IMG/VR virus record: IMGVR_UViG_3300047202_000133
Span: 1-26,855 of that record
DNA length: 26,855 nt
Direction: 5' to 3' (one strand)
DNA from: a virus
Part shown: one piece after another, positions 1 to 15,543 of the stretch
How positions within the stretch are numbered: the first letter of the stretch is position 1
Layout of the letters: each line of letters begins with the position of its first letter
The notes under the pieces: generated by a model
Told to the model about the DNA's origin: nothing
What the model saw: the letters and a program-made list of their open reading frames with translations, nothing else
Database searches by the model: none
Translations under genes and position numbers: made by a program

Positions 1-610
1 GGCTCCAAGTCTTGTTCCTGATCTCGAGCGCACGTGCGTCACGAGTCGGGTAGGCGGTGGCCATTGCTGATAGTCCGAAGTCACCCCATCCGCCCCACGC
101 GGTTGCGATTGACAGGGCCTTCGTTGCGTTCAGATAGGTGTCACTGGCTGGGGTTTGCGCGGTCATGGAGTTTGCTTCTGAGAGGAAGACTGCAGCGCCA
201 CGAGCCGATAGGACATCGTAGCTGGCAACTTTGCCTCTCGCGGTCTCTTGTGGGAGGAGCTCCATCAGTGGGCACTCCTTCCTCGTGGTGTCGATGATCT
301 CTTGGTCAGTGGTCGTGTGGACGATCGCACTGGTCGAGTCTAGGAATCCCTTGGTTCTCAAAGCTCTGCCTTGGAGAGCTTCACGTGTCCAATTCCAGAA
401 GCCTGTTCTGCGATCGAATCCTAGCTCGCCGTTGTCCTGGAGGCCTGCGTAGATTACGGTGCCTTCTGGAACGGCAGCGGGGCCGATCATGTTCTTGACC
501 ATCATGTCCCATGGGACGCTGTCCTCATGGCTTGCAGGCTTGAAGCCTGTCTGGTCAGCGGGCAGTCGTAGATTAAGTGGTTTTCCTAACATCATTTGTT
601 CTTGGTTCAT
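1..610 (-). CDS. Probable major capsid protein (HK97 fold), N-terminal part, cut by window edge
   Basis: An uninterrupted minus-strand frame starts at ATG 610 (MNQEQMMLGKPLNLRLPADQ) and stays open for at least 203 codons to the window edge, so the C-terminus is missing. It starts 7 bases after the stop of the prohead protease/scaffold gene, where HK97-type viruses put the major capsid protein; this position is the main argument. The visible part is acidic to neutral, with no membrane segment or cysteine cluster, and includes stretches such as GFWNWTREALQG and TAWGGWGDFGLSAM. The Shine-Dalgarno is modest (GGGAG before ATG, inside the end of the upstream gene), suggesting coupled translation. 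It could instead be a minor head protein. The role is inferred from gene order, not from a recognised motif. Confidence 0.72.
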   Translation of the reverse strand, partial: MNQEQMMLGKPLNLRLPADQTGFKPASHEDSVPWDMMVKNMIGPAAVPEGTVIYAGLQDNGELGFDRRTGFWNWTREALQGRALRTKGFLDSTSAIVHTTTDQEIIDTTRKECPLMELLPQETARGKVASYDVLSARGAAVFLSEANSMTAQTPASDTYLNATKALSIATAWGGWGDFGLSAMATAYPTRDARALEIRNKTWS

Positions 611-617
611 GCCTCAT

Positions 618-2744
618 CTAGCTCCCGAATTCCTCGATCAATGCAAGCTGCGACTCTATGCTTCCATCGCAAGATTGCATCTTCTGCATGCGTTGCATGT
701 TCTCAGGCATCACTCCAGCTTGCTCTGCGAAGCCTTTTCGAACAACGGTCTTCATCGGGATACGTCGATCAAGCTCCTTTCGGACCAAGCCCTGGATATC
801 GCGCACTCTGACCCACTTCACCTTCTGCGTGTCAGTTTCCTCGATATCTTCGTCTCGGCCCATCTCGACGCCCGTGATGATGCGTTGCTTGTCAGGCTTC
901 ATCTTGCCGTACTGAACCTCAGGTGGCTTCTGCTCATCGAGCTCGGCGCTCCCTGGGGCGTCTTCAGCCCAATCGAGAGACTCATCGGTGGACTCATCGA
1001 TGCCCTTCATCTCGAGGCCGAACGCTTTGCCCATCATGGCCATGTTCGCGTTGATGGCTTTGATCATCTTCTGCATTGAGCTGATCTTGCGGTTCTGTGC
1101 GAGAATGGCTTGCCTAGCAGCGTGATCCTTCAATGTTGCTCGTGCCTTTTCCAGCGCGGGGTCGCCCCATTCCCCGATCGCGGTTGATGCGCGTTCGGGT
1201 GCGGTGGATCCTGTTTGGCGATCGAAATCTTTTCGGGGCATTCTCCGCATTCCTGGAGGCGCAGGCATCATCTCAGAATCAGCGCCATCGGTGCCACTCT
1301 CTGGCTCAGTGTCTGGTTCTCCTTCAGGCTCTCCTTCAGGTTCTCCCTCAGGCTCGCCCTCAGGTTCTGGTTCTAGTTCCTTTCTCGTTGGTCGATCCAA
1401 ATTTCCTATTTCTCCTTTTCTTCTTACAGATTGTCCAATCCAGCCAGGTCCGAGGATCTGCACTGGACAGAACGTGGATGAATTGGCGAACGCTTTTGTG
1501 TACACATTCACAACGGTGCCTGATTCGTTCGCGGGAGCTCTCACAAGCGACGTTGCGAAATACTTGATGTCGCTTATGGCGTTCGCCACTTTCCCGTGAA
1601 TCCACTTCATTCCTTCCTGGACAGGCACGAACTCCATTGAGAAGGCGTTGAGGAATCCCTTACGGAGCTCGTATTCAGCAGAGGCAAAGTCTGGATGTGC
1701 CTTGTTAACGATCATGCGGACCCAAAGCGAGGGTTGCCCTCGGAATTTCAGAATTGCCGACTTTACGAATTTCCCGATCGGAGCTGTTGCCTGATTCTCC
1801 TGGGGCCTCGCGTATGGTGATTCATGATGCAGCCACACGAGGTTATGCGGAGGCTTCACCATCTCGTTCTTCGCCGTGACTAGGGCAGACATCTCAAGCA
1901 TATCGCCCTGCAGGTCCTTGATTGGAGCTGAGACGAATCCTTCAACGACGAGATCTCCACGTTCGACTTCGCCATCGTTCCTCTGAGCATACTTCAGCGC
2001 GATCGGCATGAAGAGGCTGTATCGTTTGATCACGACGACGCCCTTGTTCTGCAGATGGTCTTGAACGATCTGCCAGATCTCCGCTTCGGAAAGGTCCGGG
2101 TGTTCTCCGCGTTCCGTCTCGAACATATCGCGGAGCTGGCCTTCGTTGACCGCTGCACGAAGCATGATGGCTTTGACGATTCCAGGGATCAGCTTCGGTG
2201 GCGATGACCTGGGCTTTGTCGGCGCTCCAGGAGCAGCAGGCACTTTCCCATGACCTTGATGTTGCTCCTTGCGTTCTCCTGCACGATATCGGAGACCCTC
2301 TCGCATCTCTTCACGTTGGATCTGCCTCACAGGATTCTTCGGGTCAGTCGCGTAGGCGATCTGCTGCGACTGTTTTCCCACAAATTGCGGCTTACGACTC
2401 CTTTGCACTTCGATTCCTCTCTGTCGATCCTCTTGTTTTCGTTCCCCTTCACGGTAGCCACGTTCCCAGTCCGCGTTATGCGAACTGAAACCTCCGAAGT
2501 CAAGCGCCTTCTGAATGATGGCGTCGATATCAGGCGAATTCTTCTCCAGCTTCCGTGTCAGAGACTGCTTCTTCTCGTCTGAGAAGCCATGCCAGATTCC
2601 AGCTGCGATCTGTTGGAGTCTTTCAGGCTTGTACTTGGCATATTTCGGGTTCTTGCGTAGGCTGGGCAGGATTCGACTGAACCATTCACTCGGAGGACGT
2701 TCAGGCAAGGCTACCGCTCCAGGCTTGTACGAAAGAAAGAGCAT
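618..2744 (-). CDS. Prohead maturation protease fused to a scaffold-like C-terminal region
   Basis: This 708-residue protein would cleave and organise the capsid during head assembly. Residues 1-100 form a charged helical region (PPSEWF, IAAGIWHGF). Residues about 240-420 look like the HK97 prohead protease fold: VVEGFVSAPIKD, then WLHHESP (His306/307 as candidate catalytic His) and GFLNAFSMEFVPV (Ser369 as candidate nucleophile). Residues about 456-483 are a Glu-Gly-Glu-Pro tandem repeat. The remaining C-terminal part is charged and predicted helical, as in scaffolds. It is far longer than a stand-alone protease (about 200 residues), so a protease-scaffold fusion is inferred. The capsid gene follows 7 bases downstream. 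A TATA-like element about 25 bases upstream of ATG 2744 suggests a near-leaderless transcript. Confidence 0.85.
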   Translation of the reverse strand: MLFLSYKPGAVALPERPPSEWFSRILPSLRKNPKYAKYKPERLQQIAAGIWHGFSDEKKQSLTRKLEKNSPDIDAIIQKALDFGGFSSHNADWERGYREGERKQEDRQRGIEVQRSRKPQFVGKQSQQIAYATDPKNPVRQIQREEMREGLRYRAGERKEQHQGHGKVPAAPGAPTKPRSSPPKLIPGIVKAIMLRAAVNEGQLRDMFETERGEHPDLSEAEIWQIVQDHLQNKGVVVIKRYSLFMPIALKYAQRNDGEVERGDLVVEGFVSAPIKDLQGDMLEMSALVTAKNEMVKPPHNLVWLHHESPYARPQENQATAPIGKFVKSAILKFRGQPSLWVRMIVNKAHPDFASAEYELRKGFLNAFSMEFVPVQEGMKWIHGKVANAISDIKYFATSLVRAPANESGTVVNVYTKAFANSSTFCPVQILGPGWIGQSVRRKGEIGNLDRPTRKELEPEPEGEPEGEPEGEPEGEPDTEPESGTDGADSEMMPAPPGMRRMPRKDFDRQTGSTAPERASTAIGEWGDPALEKARATLKDHAARQAILAQNRKISSMQKMIKAINANMAMMGKAFGLEMKGIDESTDESLDWAEDAPGSAELDEQKPPEVQYGKMKPDKQRIITGVEMGRDEDIEETDTQKVKWVRVRDIQGLVRKELDRRIPMKTVVRKGFAEQAGVMPENMQRMQKMQSCDGSIESQLALIEEFGS
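1316..1378. repeat. 12-bp tandem repeat encoding Glu-Gly-Glu-Pro
   Basis: On the plus strand the unit reads roughly GGTTCTCCTTCA or GGCTCGCCCTCA, repeated about five times with third-base variation. It encodes an acidic (EGEP)n linker between the protease and scaffold-like parts of the prohead protein. Silent variation between units suggests selection on the peptide rather than a very recent expansion. Confidence 0.8.
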
Positions 2745-3223: not shown

Positions 3224-3571
3224 CTATTGACATTCTCTTGTCACACAATCGTTACAGATCCACAAGAGCGTCTTACTTCGTATCTCGCTTCGAAAGATGA
3301 CTCCGGAGTTTCGGTCCTTCCAGCGCTTGCATGTTGGGCACCACAGGTTCGGGCTTCGCACGATCTTGCGGATGGTATTCACGTGTACTTGGAAGATTCG
3401 GCTGAGCTGGCTGAGGCTGTGGTTCTTCGCTGACAGCTGAATTACTAGGTAGTCTCGGCTGGACAGTTTGCGTCGTGGATCCAGTCTCTGGGAGCTTTGG
3501 TTCGAGCTTGCAGGGGAGGCCTTTGGTGTCCATGAGCTCGCACCACCACGTGCGGGTTTCTCGTTTCCCAT
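3224..3571 (-). CDS. Small HTH plus zinc-ribbon protein (frame overlaps next gene)
   Basis: The C-terminal 80 residues look real: LSQLSRIFQVHVNTIRKIV is a helix-turn-helix, close in style to the HTH of the neighbouring HNH protein. It is followed by CPTCKRW and CNDCVTREC, a four-Cys zinc ribbon. This suggests a DNA-binding regulator. The first 35 residues are Ser/Pro-rich and overlap, in another frame, the Cys-rich protein at 3273-3725. Such a long overlap (299 bases) is unusual. Either the true start is further inside, or the two frames are one gene split by a frameshift (Cys-rich N-terminus, HTH C-terminus). The ATG at 3571 is therefore uncertain. Confidence 0.55.
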   Translation of the reverse strand: MGNEKPARGGASSWTPKASPASSNQSSQRLDPRRKLSSRDYLVIQLSAKNHSLSQLSRIFQVHVNTIRKIVRSPNLWCPTCKRWKDRNSGVIFRSEIRSKTLLWICNDCVTRECQ

Positions 3572-3725
3572 CTAAGGTTACTCCTGACCAGATGTTCCTC
3601 CGATAATGCTCGCAGCTGTAGCATTCGACGCGTTGTGCAGCTGTGTCTCCTCCGCCTCTGGTGGCCCACGATGACTTGACGTCCAGAATGCCTAGATCAG
3701 GCTTCGACAATTGGCGCAGATCCAC
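3273..3725 (-). CDS. Cys-rich small protein, N-terminal half convincing
   Basis: Residues 33-73 contain CYSCEHYRRNIW and TRTWWCEL..KGLPC, a spaced Cys arrangement typical of small viral zinc-binding proteins (C-x2-C, then W-C-E). A related layout occurs in the plus-strand protein at 5181-5537. The C-terminal half is Pro/Gln/Glu-rich and may be either a disordered tail or an out-of-frame reading, because the frame at 3224-3571 carries a clear HTH over the same bases. The gene overlaps the upstream zinc-ribbon gene by 34 bases. The function is unknown; metal-dependent nucleic-acid or protein binding is a guess from the cysteines. Confidence 0.55.
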   Translation of the reverse strand: MDLRQLSKPDLGILDVKSSWATRGGGDTAAQRVECYSCEHYRRNIWSGVTLDGKRETRTWWCELMDTKGLPCKLEPKLPETGSTTQTVQPRLPSNSAVSEEPQPQPAQPNLPSTREYHPQDRAKPEPVVPNMQALEGPKLRSHLSKRDTK

Positions 3726-4012: not shown

Positions 4013-4021
4013 TTTTATATA
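4013..4021 (+). promoter_or_regulatory. TATA box of the first plus-strand cassette
   Basis: TTTTATATA matches the archaeal TATA consensus well. About 25 bases downstream puts transcription start near 4040-4045, followed by GGTGG at 4048-4052 and a TTG start at 4059. This fixes the beginning of the operon 4059-5537 and argues against an earlier start at 3951, which lies upstream of the box. Confidence 0.6.
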
Positions 4022-4058
4022 TCCTAACCGAGCTCGGTACAGGGCACGGTGGAATTGT

Positions 4059-4256
4059 TTGGCGAATGAAAACCGCCAGCTGAAGGGCACCGCAGCCTCA
4101 ACTGCGGAAGACGAACGAGGTTATGTCGAAGCTCTTGTCCGAATAGCGAACCGTCACGGCTACCAACTGCGGTGTCGCGTCAGCGATCGACACCGAGTGA
4201 TGCGCCACAAGGACACGGGGGAAGAGCTCGAGATCGAACTCCTGGAGGTCTCCTAG
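4059..4256 (+). CDS. Small basic/acidic protein, first gene of plus cassette 1
   Basis: This 65-residue protein of unknown function ends ANRHGYQLRCRVSDRHRVM..GEELEIELLEVS. An in-frame ATG exists at 3951, but the TATA box at 4013-4021 and the GGTGG site at 4048-4052 point to TTG 4059, six bases after the site. Its stop codon directly touches the ATG of the next gene, so the two are translationally coupled. The C-terminal half (residues about 22-60) looks like a small alpha/beta fold; nothing more specific was recognised. Confidence 0.55.
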   Translation: MANENRQLKGTAASTAEDERGYVEALVRIANRHGYQLRCRVSDRHRVMRHKDTGEELEIELLEVS

Positions 4257-4739
4257 ATGGCCGTCAGAGAACTAGTATTTGCCGAATCGAACGGAGAGAT
4301 TGAACTCCCACATGAGGACTGGTACAGGAACGACGTCGCAGTCGTCACGCGCAGATTCCTCGAACTCTACGAGCAGCTGTTGACTCAAGAAGAAAGAGGC
4401 AGCGTGAGCGAGCCTCTGATCCTGAACGTGATCTTGGCCGGGTGGGAGCTGAAGAAGCATGGCTACCAGAAGGATGAGAATGTTCGCACCATCCTCAGCG
4501 TTCAACTGCCAGCGATAGCGAAGAAGTATGGCTTCTCGACCCTCTACCGAGCAGGCCTATTGTGGACGCTGAAGCGTCGGCTTGAGAAAAAGGTGGCGGA
4601 GCATGGTGGCTTAGGGATTGTGGCAATGCGTCTGCATTGTGCGCGGTGCGGCAAAGCGATCTGGAATCCAGACAGTGTCAAGCGAGGTCTCGGTCCGATC
4701 TGCAAAGACAAAGTTGGTACCCCAGTTCAGCGAAGTTGA
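4257..4739 (+). CDS. DUF6011-like zinc-ribbon protein
   Basis: This protein has 160 residues. The last 40 carry LHCARCGKAIWNPDSVKRGLGPICKDK, the CxxCG..L..P.S...G.GP.C pattern of the DUF6011 family of small phage and plasmid zinc proteins. The first 115 residues are helical and charged (FLELYEQLLTQEE, LSVQLPAIAKKYGFSTLY) with no known motif. ATG 4257 follows the previous stop without a gap. DUF6011 domains have no settled function; they are common in viral accessory regions. The protein probably binds zinc and perhaps nucleic acid. Confidence 0.72.
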   Translation: MAVRELVFAESNGEIELPHEDWYRNDVAVVTRRFLELYEQLLTQEERGSVSEPLILNVILAGWELKKHGYQKDENVRTILSVQLPAIAKKYGFSTLYRAGLLWTLKRRLEKKVAEHGGLGIVAMRLHCARCGKAIWNPDSVKRGLGPICKDKVGTPVQRS

Positions 4740-4749
4740 GGGATCAGGC

Positions 4750-4989
4750 TTGAGCGATGCACGAATCATCCGATCGCAGATCCACGCCGCTCTAGACGTT
4801 CTCCGTGAAGGTCCTGGCCACTTCGTTCCAGCAGGGAAGGACCACTGTGCCTGGTGTGGCTTGCCTCGAGCGGAGCTGCAGAAAGCGAATCCATGTCCGA
4901 AGACTCTCGTCAAGAAGACGGAGATCATGGGCGGACATAGCATGAGTGGAAGAAACACCTGGAACGAGTATCCTGTGGAGAAGGCTTAG
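4750..4989 (+). CDS. Small Cys-rich protein with C-terminal NTWxEYP motif
   Basis: This 79-residue protein is read from TTG 4750, chosen because GAGGGA lies six bases upstream and the previous gene ends at 4739. It contains HCAWCGLPRAEL and PCPKTL, a probable zinc site, and ends GGHSMSGRNTWNEYP. The same terminal pattern (GG..SG-NTWxEYP) recurs at the end of the protein at 5181-5537, two genes downstream. This suggests a shared fold or partner. Its TAG stop touches the ATG at 4990. The function is unknown. Confidence 0.65.
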   Translation: MSDARIIRSQIHAALDVLREGPGHFVPAGKDHCAWCGLPRAELQKANPCPKTLVKKTEIMGGHSMSGRNTWNEYPVEKA

Positions 4990-5184
4990 ATGCCTTCTTC
5001 CCTCTATTTTTTCCGAAGCCATGAGCTCAACTGCCCCAAGTGCGGCTGGATTTCACGAGCGCGACTCAAACTCAAAGTCGAGGGCATCAAAGGGGGAAGC
5101 CGTAGAATCCGATACTGCCCGAAATGTGGAACCGAGCTCACACGGACTGAGAGTCATCCGCGCAGGAGATGGCACCGAGCATGA
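4990..5184 (+). CDS. Small basic zinc-ribbon protein
   Basis: This protein has 64 residues. CPKCGWISRARLKLK and YCPKCGTELTRTE give a classic two-knuckle zinc ribbon separated by a basic, Lys/Arg-rich strand, and the tail PRRRWHRA is also basic. That charge pattern fits nucleic-acid binding. It is translated directly after the preceding stop and overlaps the next gene by ATGA at 5181. No specific family was recognised beyond generic zinc ribbons. Confidence 0.68.
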   Translation: MPSSLYFFRSHELNCPKCGWISRARLKLKVEGIKGGSRRIRYCPKCGTELTRTESHPRRRWHRA

Positions 5185-5537
5185 AGCGAGATCTAGGACG
5201 AGTCTGCAAGTTCTGCGCGTATTGGCTGCCCGATCCTGTAGGGACAGGCCTCTGCAGACGATTCAAGAGCGTGCAATCGCTACAGGAGAGACTGAATGCA
5301 GGCGCGACCTACATCGTCCTGACAGGAGCCGAGATCGATCGTCAGCCGATTACGACCGATCGCCCAGGAGTGACGATCGAAGGCCGAGGGAAGAAGGAGA
5401 TCGAAGAGCAGGCAGCAACAGGACCCGACTGTCCCTGCTTGTGGGGAGACGACAAGTTCCTCGCTCGAGAGAAAGAGTTCCTGGGCGGACAGGGTCCTAG
5501 CGGGAATACTTGGTGCGAGTATCCTATGGGCGGCTGA
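5181..5537 (+). CDS. Cys-rich protein of the CxxC...WCE type
   Basis: This protein has 118 residues from ATG 5181, which overlaps the previous stop as ATGA; another in-frame ATG lies at 5169. The start CKFCAYWLPDP..GLCRRF and end GNTWCEYPMGG follow the pattern of small phage proteins with CxxC, a Cys-Arg turn and a terminal Trp-Cys-Glu. PDCPCLWGD adds further cysteines. Its C-terminus resembles that of the 4750-4989 protein. It ends convergently, overlapping the minus-strand MuF-like gene by 14 bases. The function is unknown; metal binding is likely. Confidence 0.68.
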   Translation: MKRDLGRVCKFCAYWLPDPVGTGLCRRFKSVQSLQERLNAGATYIVLTGAEIDRQPITTDRPGVTIEGRGKKEIEEQAATGPDCPCLWGDDKFLAREKEFLGGQGPSGNTWCEYPMGG

Positions 5538-5838
5538 CCATCGAGTACGGTCCCTCGACAGGCATCCAAATGCATCTGCACATGACGTGCGCAGGAATCG
5601 TAGGCAGGAAAGGCTCGTCTGAATCGTAGACGCCTGCGCTGGCTTCGCATTGATCGCAGACACTGTCATCCTCCATCGTCACCCATTCGACCTGATACTT
5701 CTCGCCTGTCTCCGCGTCTGTGACAGCAGCGACTTCTTTGATTCCCACGTTGAGGGTGCTCCAGGTGAGGTGATGAGCGAGATCGCTCAGCCTGTAGACG
5801 AGGCCCTTGAGTGTCTTCCAGAAATCGACTGAGCTCAC
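5524..5838 (-). CDS. MuF-like head morphogenesis protein, C-terminal domain only
   Basis: This 104-residue protein carries the hallmark end of the Mu gpF / SPP1 gp7 minor head family: VEWVTMEDDSVCDQCEA, then IPAHVMCRCIWMPVEGP (acidic Cys pair, then P.H..CRC). Family members are normally 250 residues or more with a long helical N-terminus, so this is a stub. The frame stays open upstream to 5947, but no ATG, GTG or TTG occurs before GTG 5838. A minus-strand GTATATC element near 5873 fits a promoter for that GTG. It lies far from the portal, its usual neighbour, with a plus cassette between. It may be a shortened functional protein or the severed end of an ancestral portal-MuF gene. Confidence 0.75.
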   Translation of the reverse strand: MSSVDFWKTLKGLVYRLSDLAHHLTWSTLNVGIKEVAAVTDAETGEKYQVEWVTMEDDSVCDQCEASAGVYDSDEPFLPTIPAHVMCRCIWMPVEGPYSMVSRP

Positions 5839-6006
5839 TCGTCGTGCCCCATGGAGAATACGCAGGCCGAGATATACTGTTTTTGAGCTCGCTCGAGACG
5901 TAATGAGCCCATTGCCTCCGATCGGAGGATCCTGCCTTTGAGCCCATTAACGGAGCCATTTATAGGGAAGATCTTCGGAATGGGCCCATTAGGGAAGGAT
6001 CCTCGG
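5839..6006. promoter_or_regulatory. Divergent control region with palindromes and two TATA boxes
   Basis: This gap separates the MuF-like gene (minus) from plus cassette 2. It holds a minus-strand TATA element (GTATATC, about 5870-5877) and a plus-strand one (ATTTATAGG, 5958-5966). It also holds TAATGAGCCCATT at 5901-5913, the perfect 14-bp palindrome CCTCCGATCGGAGG at 5915-5928, GAGCCCATTA at 5941, GAAGATCTTC at 5967-5976 and the perfect palindrome AATGGGCCCATT at 5979-5990, which spans the expected plus start site. The density of symmetric sites suggests operator control of both directions. Confidence 0.5.
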
Positions 6007-6129
6007 ATGGCGGTCGCGATGATGGCGAAGTGTGGGTGCGAGCTCCAGCCTCAGCACTGGTGCATGGTCTGCGGCATGTGTCCTACGCATTGCAAGTGCC
6101 CTAGCGATAAGTATGAGCAGTTCCGTTAG
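6007..6129 (+). CDS. Tiny Cys-rich protein, first gene of plus cassette 2
   Basis: This protein has 40 residues starting MAVAMMAKCGCELQPQHW, with CxC, CMVCGMC and HCKC clusters: at least seven cysteines and two histidines, enough for two zinc sites. The frame is open upstream to TTG 5938, but the TATA box at 5958-5966 predicts transcription start near 5988. AGGGAAGGAT at 5991-6000 is well placed for ATG 6007, so the short form is preferred. The function is unknown. Confidence 0.6.
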   Translation: MAVAMMAKCGCELQPQHWCMVCGMCPTHCKCPSDKYEQFR

Positions 6130-6157
6130 GTCTCCTTCCTCCCCTTGAGGAATCAAT

Positions 6158-6373
6158 ATGGAAGTCGGAGATAGAATGCCGTTTTTCTACCGAAAGCACG
6201 GAGTCACCGTCATTGGACGACTCCAGTTCTCTTTCGACTGGTTCGGCTGGCAAGATTGGTGCAGGTCAGGAATAGTCGTGTATTGGCTTCCTAAGAATCC
6301 GCGATACATGCTACGCGTCAAGTGGTGGTACAAGATTCCTTCTCTGAGTCTTCACTTGGAGAGATACACATGA
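6158..6373 (+). CDS. Small aromatic-rich protein, unknown
   Basis: This is a 71-residue protein rich in Trp, Tyr and Phe (FSFDWFGWQDW, YMLRVKWWYKIPS) and basic near its end. ATG 6158 is preceded by GAGG at a good distance. There is no cysteine cluster and no clear membrane segment; it looks like a compact beta-rich fold. Its stop overlaps the next start as ATGA (6370-6373). No family was recognised. Confidence 0.65.
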   Translation: MEVGDRMPFFYRKHGVTVIGRLQFSFDWFGWQDWCRSGIVVYWLPKNPRYMLRVKWWYKIPSLSLHLERYT

Positions 6374-6702
6374 GCACCGAAGTGACTCTAGACGTAGAAT
6401 CATTCCTCGCCAGCATTCAAGACGCTTGCAAGTCCCTGATAGAAAACGGATATCGCCCCGACTCGCTGGCACTCGCTACAAGATTCTGGAACGGTGTCGC
6501 GGGAGATCTTACTAGATGGTCGATCAAGCATCTATTCTACCGCCCCAGCGGCCAGGCGGTCTTGGCAAGCCTTCTAAGCCTCAGCGTATCAATCGTTGAT
6601 TTCCTTCCACAGATGACCATGATCGTTTCAGACTCGAAGGGCATGGGCGACGAAGCCATGCGCGTCCTTAGATGGTGGATGATAGCAAAGGTGGAACAAT
6701 GA
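6370..6702 (+). CDS. Hypothetical helical protein
   Basis: This 110-residue protein is read from ATG 6370, which overlaps the previous stop as ATGA and follows GGAGAG; the in-frame ATG at 6322 lies inside the upstream gene. It starts MSTEVTLDVESFLASIQDA and has a moderately hydrophobic middle (AVLASLLSLSVSIVDFLPQM) that could be an amphipathic helix or a weak membrane segment. It is coupled to the next gene by ATGA at 6699. The function is unknown. Confidence 0.65.
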   Translation: MSTEVTLDVESFLASIQDACKSLIENGYRPDSLALATRFWNGVAGDLTRWSIKHLFYRPSGQAVLASLLSLSVSIVDFLPQMTMIVSDSKGMGDEAMRVLRWWMIAKVEQ

Positions 6703-7001
6703 GTAAGCGTGCGGGTAGAATGCGGTTGAGTCTGCAGGATCGCGTGATCCTCACGGCATCGCTCCTAGCATCTTTGGAGCGAGCGATGCGGAAAAAGAAA
6801 TACGATGAAGCAGTCACGCTCTATGCTCTAGCGAATCGTCTCCGAACTAAGCAGCCAGGACGCCCGGATGACTTCAGTTATCTACACTGGCGTCTCGAGC
6901 AGGACAAGCAGACTCGACAGAGCCATCTGGTAGCTGATGCGAAGGAATGGCTTGAGGAGCTAGAGAAGAAGATCAAAGCCGCCGAGAAGGAGACGTCTTG
7001 A
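6699..7001 (+). CDS. Hypothetical helical basic protein
   Basis: This protein has 100 residues from ATG 6699, which overlaps the previous stop and follows GGTGG. It is strongly helical and charged, with a tetratricopeptide-like stretch (RAMRKKKYDEAVTLYALANR) and a C-terminal Lys/Glu coiled coil (EWLEELEKKIKAAEKE). It probably acts through protein contacts. It overlaps the next start as TTGA at 6998. No family was recognised. Confidence 0.68.
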   Translation: MSKRAGRMRLSLQDRVILTASLLASLERAMRKKKYDEAVTLYALANRLRTKQPGRPDDFSYLHWRLEQDKQTRQSHLVADAKEWLEELEKKIKAAEKETS

Positions 7002-7189
7002 AGATGATTCGCCGCTTGATGTTCGTGTGTAAGGCATGTCATCAAAGGCAAGAATCCGCGCTGTTCACGATGGATGAAGAGAGCTTTCGCAATCGCAACA
7101 TACAAGACTGCGAGGAAGAGTGCGTGAAATGCAAACGGCAATTCCTGTATCAGACAGCAGATTACAGCTTTCCAAAGGAGACCGAGTGA
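6998..7189 (+). CDS. Small zinc-ribbon protein
   Basis: This 63-residue protein has FVCKACHQRQESALF and CEEECVKCKRQFLYQ, giving two Cys pairs for a zinc ribbon with acidic residues between them. TTG 6998 overlaps the previous stop (TTGA) and lies five bases after GGAG; ATG 7004 is an alternative start two codons later. The function is unknown, but the pattern repeats that of the surrounding small proteins. Confidence 0.65.
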   Translation: MKMIRRLMFVCKACHQRQESALFTMDEESFRNRNIQDCEEECVKCKRQFLYQTADYSFPKETE

Positions 7190-7190
7190 G

Positions 7191-7322
7191 ATGGGACGGA
7201 CCTGCTATGAGAAGAAGGCTGGCTGCCCTGCCTCTGGAGATGGATATCACTTGTGTCTAGTGAAGCACTGGAAGAACTTTGATCGGCACATCTGCTCGCA
7301 TTGTGGAGCGCGATTCTCATAA
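7191..7322 (+). CDS. Tiny zinc-binding protein
   Basis: This 43-residue protein is shorter than usual gene-finder cut-offs. It reads MGRTCYEKKAGCPASGDGYH and ends HICSHCGARFS. Residues C5, C12 and C22 with several His, plus a final CxxC knuckle, suggest one zinc site. It begins one base after the previous gene's stop, with GGAG in the tail of that gene. It continues the head-to-tail chain of the cassette. The function is unknown. Confidence 0.55.
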   Translation: MGRTCYEKKAGCPASGDGYHLCLVKHWKNFDRHICSHCGARFS

Positions 7323-7453
7323 GATATGTTGACTTCATCCGAGAGCATGCATCAATTACAGCAAACGGGAGGTTCTTCTGCGATCTCTGCTGGCAATGGA
7401 TCAATCATCAACGGTGGGCGCACTTCAAATTCAGGCATAGGAAAGCTGCTTGA
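7301..7453 (+). CDS. Tiny C2H2-like zinc-finger protein
   Basis: This is a 50-residue frame. The C-terminal part FFCDLCWQWINHQRWAHFKF followed by RHRK has CxxC and several spaced histidines, resembling a single C2H2 finger of the kind frequent in archaeal viruses. The start is uncertain: TTG 7301 is the only standard start codon after the upstream stop at 7280 and overlaps the previous gene by 22 bases. A competing frame from ATG 7326 gives only a Ser/Gly-rich peptide and is judged less likely. Confidence 0.45.
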   Translation: MWSAILIRYVDFIREHASITANGRFFCDLCWQWINHQRWAHFKFRHRKAA

Positions 7454-7472
7454 CGTCTGAGAATGAGCCCAT

Positions 7473-7973
7473 TTGAAGATCCTAGACGCGACGGCTGGAT
7501 ATCGTGCATTCTGGAAGGGCAGAACGCCGAGCGATATCGTCTTTGTGGATCGACGCACAATAGTGAGGCCCACGATTGTGGCTGACGATCGACGCCTCCC
7601 CTTTCAGCCCGGGATCTTCGGAATCGTGTACTTCGACCCTCCGTTCCTGCATGGAAAGGGCGGATGGTCAAGCCACAAGTTCGGTGGCTTCGGCACCTAC
7701 GATCAGCTGCGACAACTCTTCCTAGTTGCCCCCAGGGAGTTCGCTCGAGTTCTCACACCAGGAGGGCTTCTCGTTGTGAAGCTGATGCGTTCGAGCACAG
7801 CGCCGAAGCATCATACAAGCCTCTTCATGGCGCATATTGATCTCAGGTTTGCAGAGTATGCAGCGTGCGCAGGCTTCCGTCTTGTGAAGCGTTGGAGTAG
7901 GAAGAGTCGCGGTGGCAGCCGAAGAGGTCAAGTGGTCTGGATGACATTCAGGCTAGGGGGGAAGCAGACGTGA
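7473..7973 (+). CDS. SAM-dependent methyltransferase, probably DNA-directed
   Basis: This protein has 166 residues. ILDATAGYRAFWKG near the N-terminus is the AdoMet-binding motif I, VFVDRR fits motif II, and VYFDPPF is a DPPY-type catalytic motif IV, as in amino-methylating DNA methyltransferases. LTPGGLLVVKL and a basic C-terminus (RWSRKSRGGSRRG) follow. The enzyme would methylate an exocyclic amino group in DNA, perhaps to evade host restriction; an RNA or protein substrate cannot be excluded. Start TTG 7473 leaves almost nothing before motif I. An out-of-frame ATG at 7463 would give MSPL before the same motif if one T were absent, so the true N-terminus is uncertain. It is coupled to the next gene by GTGA. 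Confidence 0.82.
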   Translation: MKILDATAGYRAFWKGRTPSDIVFVDRRTIVRPTIVADDRRLPFQPGIFGIVYFDPPFLHGKGGWSSHKFGGFGTYDQLRQLFLVAPREFARVLTPGGLLVVKLMRSSTAPKHHTSLFMAHIDLRFAEYAACAGFRLVKRWSRKSRGGSRRGQVVWMTFRLGGKQT

Positions 7974-8140
7974 GCACTTATGGTTGTCGTGCATCTTGGG
8001 GATCTTGCCCGACGAGGGGCTGCCTACCGAAGCCTCACCGTTGCCAGAAGCGACGTCCGAACAGGCCCCACCTTCATGTCTGCAGATTCTGCGGAGCGGA
8101 GTCACCGTATGAAAGCGACGGATCGGAGGGACTTCATTGA
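7970..8140 (+). CDS. Small Cys/His-rich protein
   Basis: This 56-residue protein is read from GTG 7970, overlapping the methyltransferase stop as GTGA. It has six cysteines (GCRASWGSC, RGCLP, HRCQ, HVCRFCGAE) and several His in a basic context, and probably binds one or two zinc ions. The tail is acidic (ESDGSEGLH). GGAGGG inside its tail serves the next gene. The function is unknown. Confidence 0.55.
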   Translation: MSTYGCRASWGSCPTRGCLPKPHRCQKRRPNRPHLHVCRFCGAESPYESDGSEGLH

Positions 8141-8235
8141 GTTGCGAGTCCTGTAAGTGTCGTTGCCCGACCGCAGGCAATCCAGCAGACAAGTATGCGG
8201 CTTCTATCGAGCCTTTCCTCGGCGTGGAAACTTGA
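8137..8235 (+). CDS. Very small Cys-rich protein
   Basis: This is a 32-residue reading frame from TTG 8137, starting MSCESCKCRCPTAGNPADKY. The case for it rests on a perfect GGAGGG site six bases upstream, the TTGA overlap with the previous stop, and the dense CxxCxCxC cluster at the N-terminus. It ends with a TGA that overlaps the next TTG start. It could bind metal like a metallothionein or rubredoxin knuckle; no function is known. Confidence 0.45.
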   Translation: MSCESCKCRCPTAGNPADKYAASIEPFLGVET

Positions 8236-8378
8236 TCGGTCGCGTTCGCTGCTCCGCTTGTGGTTGCTGGCTGGGCAAAGACATCGATAAGCCTGCCCGA
8301 CGCTGTCCGAAATGCCGAAAGTTCCTATGTGAGGGTTGCCTTCCAACGCACCTAAAGACGCATGCCCTTGAAGACTAG
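8232..8378 (+). CDS. Small zinc-finger protein, last gene of plus cassette 2
   Basis: This protein has 48 residues with CSACGCW, CPKCRKFLCEGC and a THLKTH ending: six or more cysteines and two histidines, consistent with a two-zinc B-box or ribbon fold. TTG 8232 overlaps the previous stop. The gene ends convergently, overlapping the C-terminus of the minus-strand Dam-type methyltransferase by 27 bases. The function is unknown; protein or nucleic-acid binding is likely. Confidence 0.6.
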   Translation: MIGRVRCSACGCWLGKDIDKPARRCPKCRKFLCEGCLPTHLKTHALED

Positions 8379-9150
8379 GCCTCGCGGGATCTTGATTGGA
8401 TAGTTCGCTGCCAAGAGCTCCTTTCGCAGTGTTGATGTGGCTGCCCCTGGCTTCTTAATGGTATTCGTGACAGTCACACGGTTCACGTGGATACCTTTGG
8501 CTGCTAGGCCTCGAGCGAGCTCAGGATTGTCTCCGAAGCTGAGCAACCAGGAGCCCTTCAGTCCAGGCAGCACCCTGACTAGATCGGGCACGAACTTGGC
8601 GTCATACGGAGGGTCGAGGTAGAAGAATGTGCCTGGCTTATCGTATGCTTTCACGATGTCTTTCCAGTCTCGGCGTTCGATGCGCACATTCGCGAGCCGC
8701 TGCTTGTACGCGCCCACTCGCTTCAACCAGGCGGGAGCGAGATCTCGGCTCTGTCTGCTTCCTGTTCGGTCTTTTCCTCGATATCCCTTGTGCGGATCGC
8801 TCATGAAACTGGTCCTTGCAACGTACAGGTGCTTGAAGACTTGATCGGTGAGCGTTCTTGGTTTGAATTTGTCTCGCATGAATATTCTTCGCCGTGGATC
8901 TCCCCGCCAATCTCTGCGGGCTAGATCCTGCATTTCTCTGGGGCCTGCTTTCTTGATCCAGTTCCAGCAGCTTGTGAATCGTGCGTTGACGTCGTTTAAG
9001 ACTGCGGGGCCTGGATTGTCGAGGCCGAAGAATAGAGCAGCCCCCCCCCGCGAAGGGTTCAACGTAGAGGTCGTGTTGAGGAACTAAGCCTTTCAGGACT
9101 TGGAGTTGTCGACGTTTTCCTCCTGCTACGCTGGGTACAGGTGAAGCCAT
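8352..9150 (-). pseudogene. Dam-type (D12 class) N6-adenine DNA methyltransferase, frame broken at a homopolymer
   Basis: The protein starts in the portal frame as MASPVPSVAGGKRRQL and DLYVEPFAGG (AdoMet motif I). It continues in the next frame as ALFFGLDNPGPAVLNDVNARF through FFYLDPPYDAKF (catalytic DPPY motif) to LVFKGMRL. The join lies in a run of nine C at 9041-9049 (G on the coding strand). Eight G would restore one frame with motif I at normal spacing. The uninterrupted downstream frame is 8352-9062, and its ATG lies inside motif I. The enzyme would methylate adenine N6. There is no Shine-Dalgarno before ATG 9150 and no stop after the portal, so it may be a translational fusion. The break may be a sequencing error, slippage-controlled expression or true inactivation. 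Confidence 0.78.
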
Positions 9151-11574
9151 CTTGAGGGAGATCTGGCTTGCGCTGTCGTCTAGGATTGTCTGGAAGCCTT
9201 TCAATGCGTCGACGCGGAGACTCTCGTATCTGCTGACGAGTTCGGGGGGGAGCTCGATGACGTCTTTGTGCATGACTCGAGCGGCACGTTTCCTCGCGAT
9301 CTCGAGCACGCGTGCTTGGTTCTGGTCGATTGCTTTCCGTGCTGCGAGAAGGGCTTGGTCTCGAGTGAGCGAGCCTTGGATGGCTCCTGTTAGGATTCCT
9401 TTCAGCTGTCGATGTAGTCCGCGTTCTTCTTGGAGTGGGCCTCGGAACGCGTCTGAGTGGCCATGGTCTGGTCGTTCGAGAGCGCCGAGCGTCTCTTGAT
9501 GTTGTGGCCCTGTCGCGGGAGTTTCTTCTCGGCTCATTCCCATGAGGCCGAGGATCTTCTGCGGTTTCTTCTTCTTGGGGCCTGTGGCTCCTGCAACTGG
9601 TGGCACGTCCCGTTTTCCTTTCGGATGCTCACCTTCAGGTCTCACGAGTGGTGTCGGAACGATCTTGCTCTCAGGGTCAGTGATTGGGTCGGTGACTCGT
9701 CTCGGTGGCGCTAGTCTGTCGAGTGGATCGATGATCCTTCCCATTGCTATGCCAGCGTTTGTTTCATCGCGCTCCCATCTGTGCGAGCCCTGGCCGCTTG
9801 AGCGAGCGTGTTCCTCAGCCATCTGCTGCCGTGTCTTGTTGATCTCCTCCGGATTCTCTCCGCCAAGCATCATTCCATCCCTCGGCCCGGGCTCATCGGG
9901 GCGTTGCCCCATCGCTCCCATCGGGTAGGGGATTGGTTTGGCTCGGCCAGCATAGGGGCCACGCCTCGAGGGAACGAAGTCTTTCCCGTAGGCTTCAGGA
10001 TGCAGAGTCGTATCTGCTTGTTGAACAACCTTCCCTGTCTGATCGTAGCTGTAGACAGGGGATGCACGATCGGCACGATCCTCGAAATCGAAGCTTTGGA
10101 AAGGTCTGCCGCCCCACGCCTTCGCGCCTTCCATGAGGCCATGCTGCTCAGCAGTCATGTCGCTGAGTGCTGCTTGTCCAGGTCCTGTGGGATTCGAACC
10201 CATACCAGGAGGTGCAGCGGCTGCTTTCATTCTTGCGAGGATGATCTGCATAGGCTCATCGCCCCATGGTCTGGGGTCGCCGGATTTGGATTTCTTGCGC
10301 CACTCGTTCGTGGTGATCAGGCCTTCCTTGATCTTCTCCAAGGCGATCTCGGTTTCAGCGAGCTCTTCTTGCTTGTCGACAAAGTTGAATACGAACTGGA
10401 GCTCGTCGCTGAATTCGGAGATGATCTGCTGAGTCATGAATTGCTCGACTAAGTGGAGGAGTGGCATGACGGATTTCCGTTTCTGAATCTGGCCTTGGGC
10501 GTTCATGGCTTTCCCTGTTTGGCGGATCTCGTCTTGGAATCCGAGCTCGGTCGGGGTGAGCTTGTAGAGTGCCCACACGAGCTGAGCGAACCATCGCTGG
10601 CCTTCCAGGAATTCCAAGTCACGGTTCGTGTAGGCGAGCGGGACGAATTTGGCGTCCCTGTTCAGCATAGCTACTTTGTGAAATCGCCCCTTGACTTCTG
10701 TGCGCCAATACTCACGCATACGATCCTCGTCTTCCTTGGTTCCTGAGAAGGAGAGGACACCGCTTGGGACCGCCCATTCCTGGAACATGGTCGCGTTCGT
10801 GAAAGCGGAATTGATGAGGCAGTTGAGGACGGTTTCCATGCTCTGGAGCTCGCCCCATCCGTAGACGCTGTAGGATCGGGGATAGCGTGCTGCGTAGACG
10901 ATCTCGTTCGTGTCGAATTCGATCGGTGCGACTGCTGGGTGTAGGTAACTGTATTGCCAATAGCGGTATTCGATGCCGTTCACATCTGTCTCTTTCAGGA
11001 ACGAGCCTCCATCTCGAGCGAAGAGCTCCACGAGCTGGCGCTCGCCTGGGGGCTTGAGTTCGAAGCCGCCTGCGGGGTGATGCGCGTAGCTGTTCGCGGT
11101 GAAGCCTTTGATCATGCAGGTCGCGTCGATCTCGAGGCCGTCACGGAGACAGGCTCGAAAGATCGTGTTTAGTGTCTCGCCCTTGTTGTCGTTCGGGTTA
11201 TTCAGGAAATACTTGATCTCATCGATAATCGCGAGAAGGCGCTCAGGCGGGTCTTCCTTCAGCTTCGGGTCTTTGGGCTCGATCTCCCAGGGGATTTGTG
11301 CCAGTTCTTCAATGATTGTGCTTGTGCACATCCAGACCCATTCGCTCGCTGCGAGCGCACGGAGCCTGTAGATGTCCACGTAGCGAGGCTGGCCCTTCAG
11401 TGGATTGTAGAACCATTCCGTGATGACGGCTCGGCGGGGGAATTCGCGTTCATCGAACCACCAGGGATAGATCGTGTCCATAACGCCTTTCGCTTGGACA
11501 GCAGCCGGGACGGATTCAATAGCCTTCGCTCGGTCGATGCTTGTGCCTCCGTAGAGGCGAATCGCATTCGGCAA
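8638..11574 (-). CDS. Portal protein with long C-terminal extension running into the methyltransferase
   Basis: The portal forms the dodecameric DNA channel at one head vertex. Residues 1-470 look like an HK97-type portal: WFYNPLKGQPRYVDIYRLRA, MCTSTIIEELAQIPWEIEP, PRSYSVYGWGELQSMETVLN, WALYKLTPTELGFQDEIRQT and a helical VDKQEELAETEIALEKIKEG. A Pro/Gly-rich linker follows. Residues about 700-800 are helical (LTRDQALLAARKAI, RVLEIARKRAARV), possibly a MuF-like N-terminal segment. The frame then reads without a stop into methyltransferase motif I near 9150 and on past the homopolymer at 9041, where it becomes nonsense. Start TTG 11574 was chosen because GGAGG sits eight bases upstream and the previous gene ends at 11577. 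The portal proper probably occupies 9151-11574. Confidence 0.88.
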   Translation of the reverse strand: MPNAIRLYGGTSIDRAKAIESVPAAVQAKGVMDTIYPWWFDEREFPRRAVITEWFYNPLKGQPRYVDIYRLRALAASEWVWMCTSTIIEELAQIPWEIEPKDPKLKEDPPERLLAIIDEIKYFLNNPNDNKGETLNTIFRACLRDGLEIDATCMIKGFTANSYAHHPAGGFELKPPGERQLVELFARDGGSFLKETDVNGIEYRYWQYSYLHPAVAPIEFDTNEIVYAARYPRSYSVYGWGELQSMETVLNCLINSAFTNATMFQEWAVPSGVLSFSGTKEDEDRMREYWRTEVKGRFHKVAMLNRDAKFVPLAYTNRDLEFLEGQRWFAQLVWALYKLTPTELGFQDEIRQTGKAMNAQGQIQKRKSVMPLLHLVEQFMTQQIISEFSDELQFVFNFVDKQEELAETEIALEKIKEGLITTNEWRKKSKSGDPRPWGDEPMQIILARMKAAAAPPGMGSNPTGPGQAALSDMTAEQHGLMEGAKAWGGRPFQSFDFEDRADRASPVYSYDQTGKVVQQADTTLHPEAYGKDFVPSRRGPYAGRAKPIPYPMGAMGQRPDEPGPRDGMMLGGENPEEINKTRQQMAEEHARSSGQGSHRWERDETNAGIAMGRIIDPLDRLAPPRRVTDPITDPESKIVPTPLVRPEGEHPKGKRDVPPVAGATGPKKKKPQKILGLMGMSREETPATGPQHQETLGALERPDHGHSDAFRGPLQEERGLHRQLKGILTGAIQGSLTRDQALLAARKAIDQNQARVLEIARKRAARVMHKDVIELPPELVSRYESLRVDALKGFQTILDDSASQISLKMASPVPSVAGGKRRQLQVLKGLVPQHDLYVEPFAGGGCSILRPRQSRPRSLKRRQRTIHKLLELDQESRPQRNAGSSPQRLAGRSTAKNIHARQIQTKNAHRSSLQAPVRCKDQFHERSAQGISRKRPNRKQTEPRSRSRLVEASGRVQAAARECAHRTPRLERHRESIR

Positions 11575-11576
11575 AC

Positions 11577-11819
11577 CTATGTGCCTCCTGGGGGTTTCTC
11601 GTAGCTGTAGCTCACGATCAATGCGACCACGTCGACGCTCATGTACCATCTGCCTCCACACATCTTGCAGACATATTCAGGGAGATCCATTGGGCCCTTC
11701 GTCATCTGGATGGGCTCAACGTGGATCTCGGACTGGCCTCTGAAGCCGCAATGTGGGCAATACATCTGCGGAGGCCCACCTAAGACTTTAGGTTCAGGCG
11801 GAGGCTCAGGTGCGGTCAT
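11577..11819 (-). CDS. Small zinc-ribbon protein next to the portal
   Basis: This 80-residue protein has a Pro-rich N-terminus (MTAPEPPPEPK), then MYCPHCGFRGQSEIHVEPIQ and YVCKMCGGRWYMSVDVVALI, a clean four-Cys zinc ribbon with hydrophobic strands. ATG 11819 overlaps the upstream stop as ATGA, and its own stop is two bases before the portal TTG. Its tail carries the GGAGG site for the portal. It could be a head-tail or regulatory protein; position alone does not decide. Confidence 0.7.
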   Translation of the reverse strand: MTAPEPPPEPKVLGGPPQMYCPHCGFRGQSEIHVEPIQMTKGPMDLPEYVCKMCGGRWYMSVDVVALIVSYSYEKPPGGT

Positions 11820-14773: not shown

Positions 14774-15327
14774 GGGGTTTCAATCCACCCTATTCTACCT
14801 ATCAACCGCAGCTTATGAAGGAATCCAGTCTCTTCCTCACGCACCATTTCATGATGGTTATGCTGATCAACCTTTAGGTTGAAGCCTCCAACACGGAAAT
14901 AGGCCCATTTCCTGAACGCGCTGCTGCTTCCTGACAGCCTGCGCCTGTACCAAGCGTTCAAAACGAGACGAGGCATGGGCACGGGCCAATGGTGCCAGCC
15001 GCTTGCAGCCACATACTCAGGGTCCAAGAAGATCTCCTCGACGTCTTGTAGATGCGTGTTGGGATAGTAGCAGTCGGCGTCGACTGACACGATGATGTCA
15101 CCTCGAGACCATCTGATTCCTGCGTCTCTGACCGTGAGCTTTCCGGAGTGCGTGTAGACGCAGCCGACAGGGTATTTGCGGCAGATCTGATCGCTCTTGT
15201 CGCGGGTCCTTTCATCGATGACGCAGACAACCTCATCAGGCACACGCTTCTGAAGGAGGAGGCTGTCGAGGCAAGAGGGCAGCAGTTCGGCTTCGTTGAA
15301 GATCGGCACGACCACGCTGAGCTTCAT
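14728..15327 (-). CDS. Family 2 glycosyltransferase
   Basis: This 199-residue protein starts MKLSVVVPIFNEAELLPSCL, the classical GT-A (GT2) nucleotide-sugar fold. It has VSVDADCYYPN at about residues 81-90 (DAD is the metal-binding DxD motif) and a later GGFN and E-E-T segment that fits the acceptor/catalytic region. It would transfer a sugar from a nucleotide donor to a glycan or virion protein. There is no membrane anchor and it is shorter than many GT2 enzymes (about 230-300), though the core is complete. ATG 15327 was chosen because the motif begins right there; upstream residues belong to the overlapping gene. Such enzymes in viruses modify capsids, fibres or host surface. Confidence 0.85.
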   Translation of the reverse strand: MKLSVVVPIFNEAELLPSCLDSLLLQKRVPDEVVCVIDERTRDKSDQICRKYPVGCVYTHSGKLTVRDAGIRWSRGDIIVSVDADCYYPNTHLQDVEEIFLDPEYVAASGWHHWPVPMPRLVLNAWYRRRLSGSSSAFRKWAYFRVGGFNLKVDQHNHHEMVREEETGFLHKLRLIGRIGWIETPCRHLRRPFESRIDA

Positions 15328-15332
15328 TCGAG

Positions 15333-15525
15333 TCACTTGATCCTGCGCTCGGTGTCGACGTACAGGATGGCTTCTTCGCAGGTTCGACAAAACATCTGCT
15401 GGCCCTCGTAGATGATGTCGCCAAAGTCCCAGGTTGCGTGCCCTTGGTCGACTATGTCGTGGAGATCTCGACCACTGATAGGGCAGGGCTTCAGCGAGTT
15501 ATCACCTTTCGGGGGGATAATGGGC
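15333..15525 (-). CDS. Small Cys-containing protein with disrupted start
   Basis: The frame ending at 15333 encodes PPKGDNSLKPCPISGRDLHD, a middle segment containing FGDIIYEGQQ and a terminal MFCRTCEEAILYVDTERRIK, with a CPxSG and a CxxC that could bind zinc. No ATG, GTG or TTG occurs in frame upstream before the terminase region. ATG 15525 (MSPL) is in another frame and would join it if the run of six C at about 15511-15516 on the coding strand had seven. I read this as one gene of about 63 residues broken by a one-base homopolymer difference; an unusual start codon is the alternative. The function is unknown. Confidence 0.45.
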
Positions 15526-15543
15526 TCATTAGCTGCGATCGTT

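Follow-up and report, generated by a model that had tools for sequence, protein, structure and literature searches.

Does a pair of opposite-strand gene chains set into the head module of a virus represent a conserved functional system, or cargo that is exchanged between related genomes? The question is raised by IMG/VR virus record IMGVR_UViG_3300047202_000133, the complete 26,855 bases of which are referred to here as the window. The minus strand of the window carries the head-module region of a tailed double-stranded DNA virus, and two plus-strand chains of small genes, cassette A (4059-5537) and cassette B (6007-8378), interrupt this module, running opposite to the portal, MuF-C, protease and capsid genes (Table 1). 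An initial annotation, made from the sequence alone, had placed the two chains at these positions, where we find the same frames, and had described them as accessory host-takeover or anti-defence operons which, together with a methyltransferase, could form a functional system not previously described. We find instead that slot contents vary among relatives and that single cassette genes have homologues elsewhere, also on the other strand, which argues that these are probably exchangeable, moron-like accessory gene cassettes occupying cargo slots in the head module, and not a conserved system.

Head-module slots and their contents

We compared the window with 11 related records from viral contigs (G001 to G011), found by their terminase (62-71% identity) or capsid protein (57-72%). 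The records stem from a small number of samples and are not independent of one another; the matches of G002 and G003 were identical, and of these two only G002 was read. Head genes flanking the cassettes are retained in the relatives, whereas the cassette gene set is complete in none of them; since several of the contigs are fragments, a gene missing outside a slot is not thereby proven absent. Two slots can be defined by conserved neighbours. Slot A is bounded by the MuF-C gene on one side and, on the other, by the zinc and helix-turn-helix (HTH) genes that precede the protease-scaffold gene; slot B is bounded by the portal (or portal-Dam) gene and the MuF-C gene.

For slot B, the portal and MuF-C genes overlap by 4 nucleotides in G006 and G010, are separated by 21-349 nucleotides in G001, G002, G004, G005 and G008, and by 1.6 kb (G007) or 1.2 kb (G011) without a well-supported plus-strand gene. 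Because the two genes abut or lie near each other in relatives, cassette B (2.5 kb) is, to judge from gene order, extra DNA in the lineage of the window, inserted between genes that are neighbours elsewhere. This comparison bears out the initial description of accessory operons inserted in a morphogenesis module. The possibility that cassette B had split a single gene into the long portal frame and a MuF-C fragment was dropped, as MuF-C is a separate small gene in relatives.

Slot A behaves as a hot spot and holds other plus-strand operons in five records from two lineages. In G001, G004 and G006 the operon encodes a DUF932 protein (a distant relative in G001), an 87-amino-acid protein and a DUF5131 protein (in G006, E-values of 1.9e-11 for DUF932 and 1.2e-93 for DUF5131), behind a leader of ~300 bases that is 79-89% identical across the three. 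In G008 the slot encodes a MazE-like regulator (PF04014), a protein of 247 amino acids and tiny zinc proteins, an operon matched by that of G009. A single plus-strand gene occupies slot A of G007, and none was found in that of G002, G005, G010 or G011. Individual cassette genes also turn up in other contexts: the A4 homologue is on the minus strand of G005, B8 homologues lie near the terminase in G007 and G010, and a B11 homologue is found in G007 among homologues of the DUF932-like, 87-amino-acid and DUF5131 genes, at 36.8-42.7 kb and outside the head module. As a pattern, then, the slot position is common to the group, while its cargo appears to be exchanged and single genes appear to travel.

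The G007 arrangement allows another reading, in which the cassettes are not foreign cargo but pieces of the virus's own early (replication or takeover) block relocated into the head module. Consistent with such a relocation, G007 keeps genes of the slot A type, together with the B11 homologue, in a plus-strand block away from the head module, but B11 alone links the window to that block, and the window is a 26.9-kb fragment whose own early block is outside view. We consider this reading doubtful, though far from negligible.

Several observations weigh against exchangeable cassettes. Base composition, which is usually distinct in such insertions although this is not strictly defining, is the same in the cassettes as in their neighbours (53-56% guanine plus cytosine). 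No terminator signal above chance was detected at the cassette ends, with a bacterial-type scan and a probably archaeal host, and the 3' ends of the cassettes overlap the convergent late genes. The palindrome AATGRGCYCATT was not found in the relatives, and most cassette products are without a homologue in the viral contigs or phage records searched.

Coding evidence and gene content

Operon-like organization is pronounced in both cassettes. Seven gene pairs (A4/A5, B2/B3, B3/B4, B4/B5, B8/B9, B9/B10 and B10/B11) are joined by 4-nucleotide stop/start overlaps of the ATGA, TTGA or GTGA type, as the initial annotation had reported, and A1/A2 and A3/A4 abut; exact four-base overlaps are a usual sign of translational coupling. 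A ribosome-binding motif precedes 11 of the 15 cassette starts, compared with 21.5% of the other start codons in the window (p = 2.6e-5). Most of the proteins carry CxxC knuckles (at least one in 10 of 15), again in line with that annotation, for a total of 16 where residue shuffling leaves 4.1 +/- 1.8 (0 of 5000 shuffles reach 16).

A codon model trained on the long genes of the group favours A2, A5, B2, B3, B4 and B8 as coding, and gives weak or negative scores to A4, B1, B6, B9, B10 and B11. Two of the latter have homologues whose alignments span the knuckles and show synonymous changes far outnumbering amino-acid changes: A4 is 55-57% identical to its G005 homologue over 54-56 amino acids, with proportions of nonsynonymous (pN) and synonymous (pS) differences of 0.31 and 0.88, and B11 aligns to its G007 homologue with a score of 63, where 500 shuffles reach at most 51. 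Since A4 and B11 score negative yet are conserved in frame, the codon score is uninformative for small Cys-rich proteins, and the coding case for the tiny Cys-rich frames is made by overlaps, knuckles and ribosome-binding motifs. The weak or negative scores could also be taken to mean that many tiny frames do not represent genes, leaving only A2, A4, A5, B3, B4, B8 and B11 as real; given the in-frame conservation of codon-negative A4 and B11, and ribosome-binding motifs and overlaps that fit genes, we consider this unlikely. Lack of conservation in relatives had been named at the outset as the observation that would speak against these frames: it holds for the set as a whole but not for A4, B8 and B11, which are under purifying selection in frame.

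The list of frames in the initial annotation was retained with two changes. Frame 7326-7460, an alternative to B7, has zero Cys and is doubtful, and A5 more likely starts at 5181 than at 5169 (122 amino acids and a codon score of 20.9 from the latter start). The count of about twenty zinc-knuckle proteins in that annotation holds only if every frame with a single CxxC is included; one uniform caller gives 15 for the window and 3-13 per 27 kb for relatives. From these counts, the abundance of Cys is in part a property of the virus group as a whole.

Family assignments are few. A2 matches DUF6011, a small Cys-containing module, at 33.1 bits (curated cut-off, 26.6), a family not mentioned in the literature searched, and B8 is a predicted DNA methyltransferase containing FDPPF. 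For the other cassette proteins, no convincing family was found in Pfam, PHROGs or PADLOC; a weak likeness of A1 to the HicA toxin (E-value 0.11) was dismissed as chance. Searched singly in viral contigs, A2, A5 and B8 recovered no relative; the A4 pair recovered only the already-known G005 gene, and the B11 pair nothing. In phage records, A2, A5 and B3 had no protein match, and B8 matched generic phage methyltransferases only. A3 and A5 share a C-terminal motif (pS 0.75 and pN 0.27 over 28 aligned codons), which suggests duplication within cassette A.

Table 1. Positions of features in the window and of portal-Dam fusion frames in three relatives (aa, amino acids; E, E-value)
Feature	Position	Strand	Details
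Major capsid gene, start only	2-610	-	named by position and similarity to relatives, not by family search
Protease-scaffold-like gene	618-2744	-	named by position and similarity to relatives, not by family search
TATA-like box, cassette A (TTTATATATC)	4014-4023	+	45 nucleotides ahead of A1 start
Perfect 12-bp palindrome ACCGAGCTCGGT	4027-4038		just past cassette A TATA-like box
A1, 65 aa, no family	4059-4256	+	ribosome-binding motif; abuts A2
A2, 160 aa, DUF6011 zinc-binding module at C-terminus	4257-4739	+	PF19474, E 4e-8; codon score 24.7
A3, 79 aa, CxxC	4750-4989	+	C-terminal motif GG..SG.NTW.EYP in common with A5
A4, 64 aa, zinc ribbon	4990-5184	+	homologue elsewhere in G005
A5, 118 aa, Cys-rich	5181-5537	+	ATGA overlap with A4
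MuF-C minor head protein, core gene between cassettes A and B	5524-5838	-	PF04233, E 2.2e-5, slightly under curated cut-off
Operator-like repeats, MuF-C/cassette B promoter region	5902-5990		AATGAGCCCATT at 5902, TGAGCCCATT at 5939, AATGGGCCCATT at 5979
Palindrome CCTCCGATCGGAGG	5915		within operator-like repeat region 5902-5990
TATA-like box, cassette B (TTTATA)	5959-5964	+	48 nucleotides ahead of B1 start
B1, 40 aa, Cys-rich (7 Cys)	6007-6129	+	
B2, 71 aa, no family	6158-6373	+	codon score 9.6; ribosome-binding motif
B3, 110 aa, no family	6370-6702	+	codon score 17.6; unmatched in phage records
B4, 100 aa, no family	6699-7001	+	codon score 9.0; ATGA overlap
B5, 63 aa, two CxxC pairs	6998-7189	+	weak zinc-finger matches only in Pfam
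B6, 43 aa, Cys/His-rich	7191-7322	+	ribosome-binding motif
B7, small uncertain frame	7301-7453	+	C2H2-like pattern; poor start
Fourth palindrome copy (AATGAGCCCATT)	7462-7473		right at B8 start
B8, 166 aa, predicted orphan DNA methyltransferase, DPPF motif	7473-7973	+	phrog_954, E 2.5e-17, residues 1-159
B9, 56 aa, Cys-rich	7970-8140	+	GTGA overlap
B10, 32 aa, Cys-rich	8137-8235	+	TTGA overlap
B11, 48 aa, B-box-like zinc protein	8232-8378	+	homologue in G007 plus-strand block
Dam-type (D12) adenine methyltransferase, C-terminal part	8352-9062	-	PF02086, E 1.3e-8
Portal protein frame, extends into Dam domain N-terminus	8638-11661	-	PF04860, E 3.7e-22
Terminase	15544-17154	-	
Portal-Dam fusion frames in three relatives	L019:10133-13474, L003:13125-17666, L025:807-4544		

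Promoter-like elements and a possible mechanism

Both cassettes are preceded by elements suggestive of their own regulation. Of five TTTATA motifs in the window (2.0 expected), four are on the plus strand, and two of these four, at 4014 and 5959, stand ahead of the A1 and B1 start codons, in line with the TATA box that the initial annotation gave each cassette. Each box is followed by a perfect 12-bp palindrome, and three of the eight such palindromes in the window fall in the two intergenic regions upstream of the cassettes (ACCGAGCTCGGT at 4027, CTCCGATCGGAG at 5916 and AATGGGCCCATT at 5979). A repeat, TGRGCCCATT, surrounds the cassette B box (5904, 5939 and 5981) and recurs at the B8 start (7464); allowing at most one mismatch, it is found 15 times in the window against 3.0 expected (0 of 100 shuffles), a count inflated by palindromic sites being scored on both strands. 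A scan for bacterial-type promoters gave nothing above chance. From these elements we infer that the cassette promoters would be under repressor control. The TGRGCCCATT palindrome also recurs, exactly or nearly so, near the end of the terminase gene (15519-15530) and in a gene frame downstream of it (14898-14909).

If the cassettes are exchangeable cargo, each would be transcribed from its own archaeal-type promoter, independently of late transcription, and a repressor binding the palindromes would control these promoters. Cassette content would be gained and lost through recombination, and the products would act on the host. For B8, the full-length phrog_954 match and the DPPF motif make methylation of viral DNA, protecting it from host restriction, the most likely role. 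The small zinc-binding proteins might bind host proteins or nucleic acid, and both this and an anti-defence role for them are guesses.

Among known elements, the morons and regions of genomic plasticity (RGPs) of tailed phages (PMC4378225) come close, being small non-conserved genes that lie between conserved head genes, are absent from relatives and have their own promoter-like signals. The cassettes differ in comprising entire opposite-strand operons (5-10 genes) with archaeal-type TATA boxes, in having no terminator of their own detected by the bacterial-type scan, and in a base composition that is not distinct. The opposite strand, the size of the operons and the operator-like palindromes are their unusual features. 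A head-region slot termed RGP G in Pseudomonas Mu-like phages reportedly lies upstream of the protease-scaffold gene. Accessory loci of these phages include anti-CRISPR genes, and RGP G resembles the cassettes in being a slot of tiny accessory genes (PMC4378225), from which they differ in running opposite to the late genes and in that no Aca-type regulator was identified. No anti-CRISPR or Aca homology was found in Pfam, PHROGs or PADLOC, with no dedicated anti-CRISPR library searched. B8 matches the orphan phage DNA methyltransferases of phrog_954 over nearly its full length and differs from them by belonging to an accessory chain on the opposite strand. Protection against restriction has likewise been discussed for stand-alone methyltransferases of Bathyarchaeia viruses (PMC10848311).

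To label the set anti-defence would be to argue from where it lies and by comparison with accessory loci in Pseudomonas Mu-like phages. The host-takeover or anti-defence role initially proposed is compatible with the position and the predicted methyltransferase, but PADLOC returned only generic methyltransferase models and one chance-level match. We find it very improbable that the cassettes, as two antisense early operons under operator control, make up a switchable host-takeover island, in which palindrome-binding repressors would restrain the cassettes and free the convergent head genes, while the zinc proteins and B8 would provide an uncultured lineage of archaeal viruses with a novel counter-defence set. 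A single co-adapted counter-defence or host-takeover system would fit the operon-like overlaps and an operator that the regions ahead of B1 and of B8 may share, but no relative has the set, its members are found alone in other settings and orientations, and no defence family is matched past the generic methyltransferase models, which makes the functional system suggested by the initial annotation very unlikely.

Portal-Dam fusion and virus context

In G005, G002 and G008, the portal protein and a D12-class (Dam-type) adenine methyltransferase share one frame, with E-values of 3e-26, 1.5e-23 and 5.8e-19 for the portal (PF04860) and 4e-23, 1.3e-21 and 1.8e-20 for the methyltransferase (PF02086), respectively. 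The corresponding fusion in the window (8352-11661, minus strand) breaks into two frames at nine consecutive Cs on the plus strand (9041-9049), a difference in G-run length that may reflect an error, a mutation or slippage. The position of the Dam domain within the portal tail varies, and no match to it was found in G001, G004, G006, G007, G010 or the available part of G011. With the G005 fusion as query, phage records yielded no place covering 80% of it. In the G008 portal frame (L025:807-4544), a weak ADP-ribosyltransferase stretch (ART-PolyVal, E-value 0.0018, under the cut-off) lies between the portal and methyltransferase domains, and the C-terminal tail of the portal in L003, L005, L012, L021 and L025 is a long Pro/Gly-rich mosaic of very unequal length among relatives, in frames of 838-1513 amino acids. 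Portal and MuF proteins fused to other enzymatic domains are thought to be injected, and these effector fusions and polyvalent proteins (PMC5512222) likewise carry an extra enzymatic domain in the portal tail, in the same frame; in the present group the domain is a Dam-type adenine methyltransferase.

Among the other head genes, MuF-C is 32-62% identical to its counterparts in eight relatives and is also matched in G011. An HTH-zinc frame (3224-3571) and a Cys-rich frame (3273-3725), both on the minus strand, overlap by ~300 bases in different frames, while their homologues in G004 and G007 overlap by 4 bases only; the overlap in the window may reflect a gene start, a frameshift or true double coding. 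The phage collection holds no near relative of this virus (best terminase identity, 38%), DNA comparison of the window with phage records gave no match, and two scans of prokaryote genomes for proviruses found none. The TATA-like boxes, together with a HerA-like ATPase (PF01935) and an Hjc-like resolvase (PF01870) in relatives, both under the cut-off, indicate that the host is likely an archaeon.

The portal-Dam fusion may be more unusual than the cassettes, and the presence of a DNA methyltransferase domain in a portal is relevant to how anti-restriction activity may be carried by parts of the virion. The slot, for its part, would be a defined site of accessory-gene exchange in a little-studied, probably archaeal, group of tailed viruses. 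Similar places in better-known phages have yielded anti-defence genes, which makes the slot a practical place to search for such genes.

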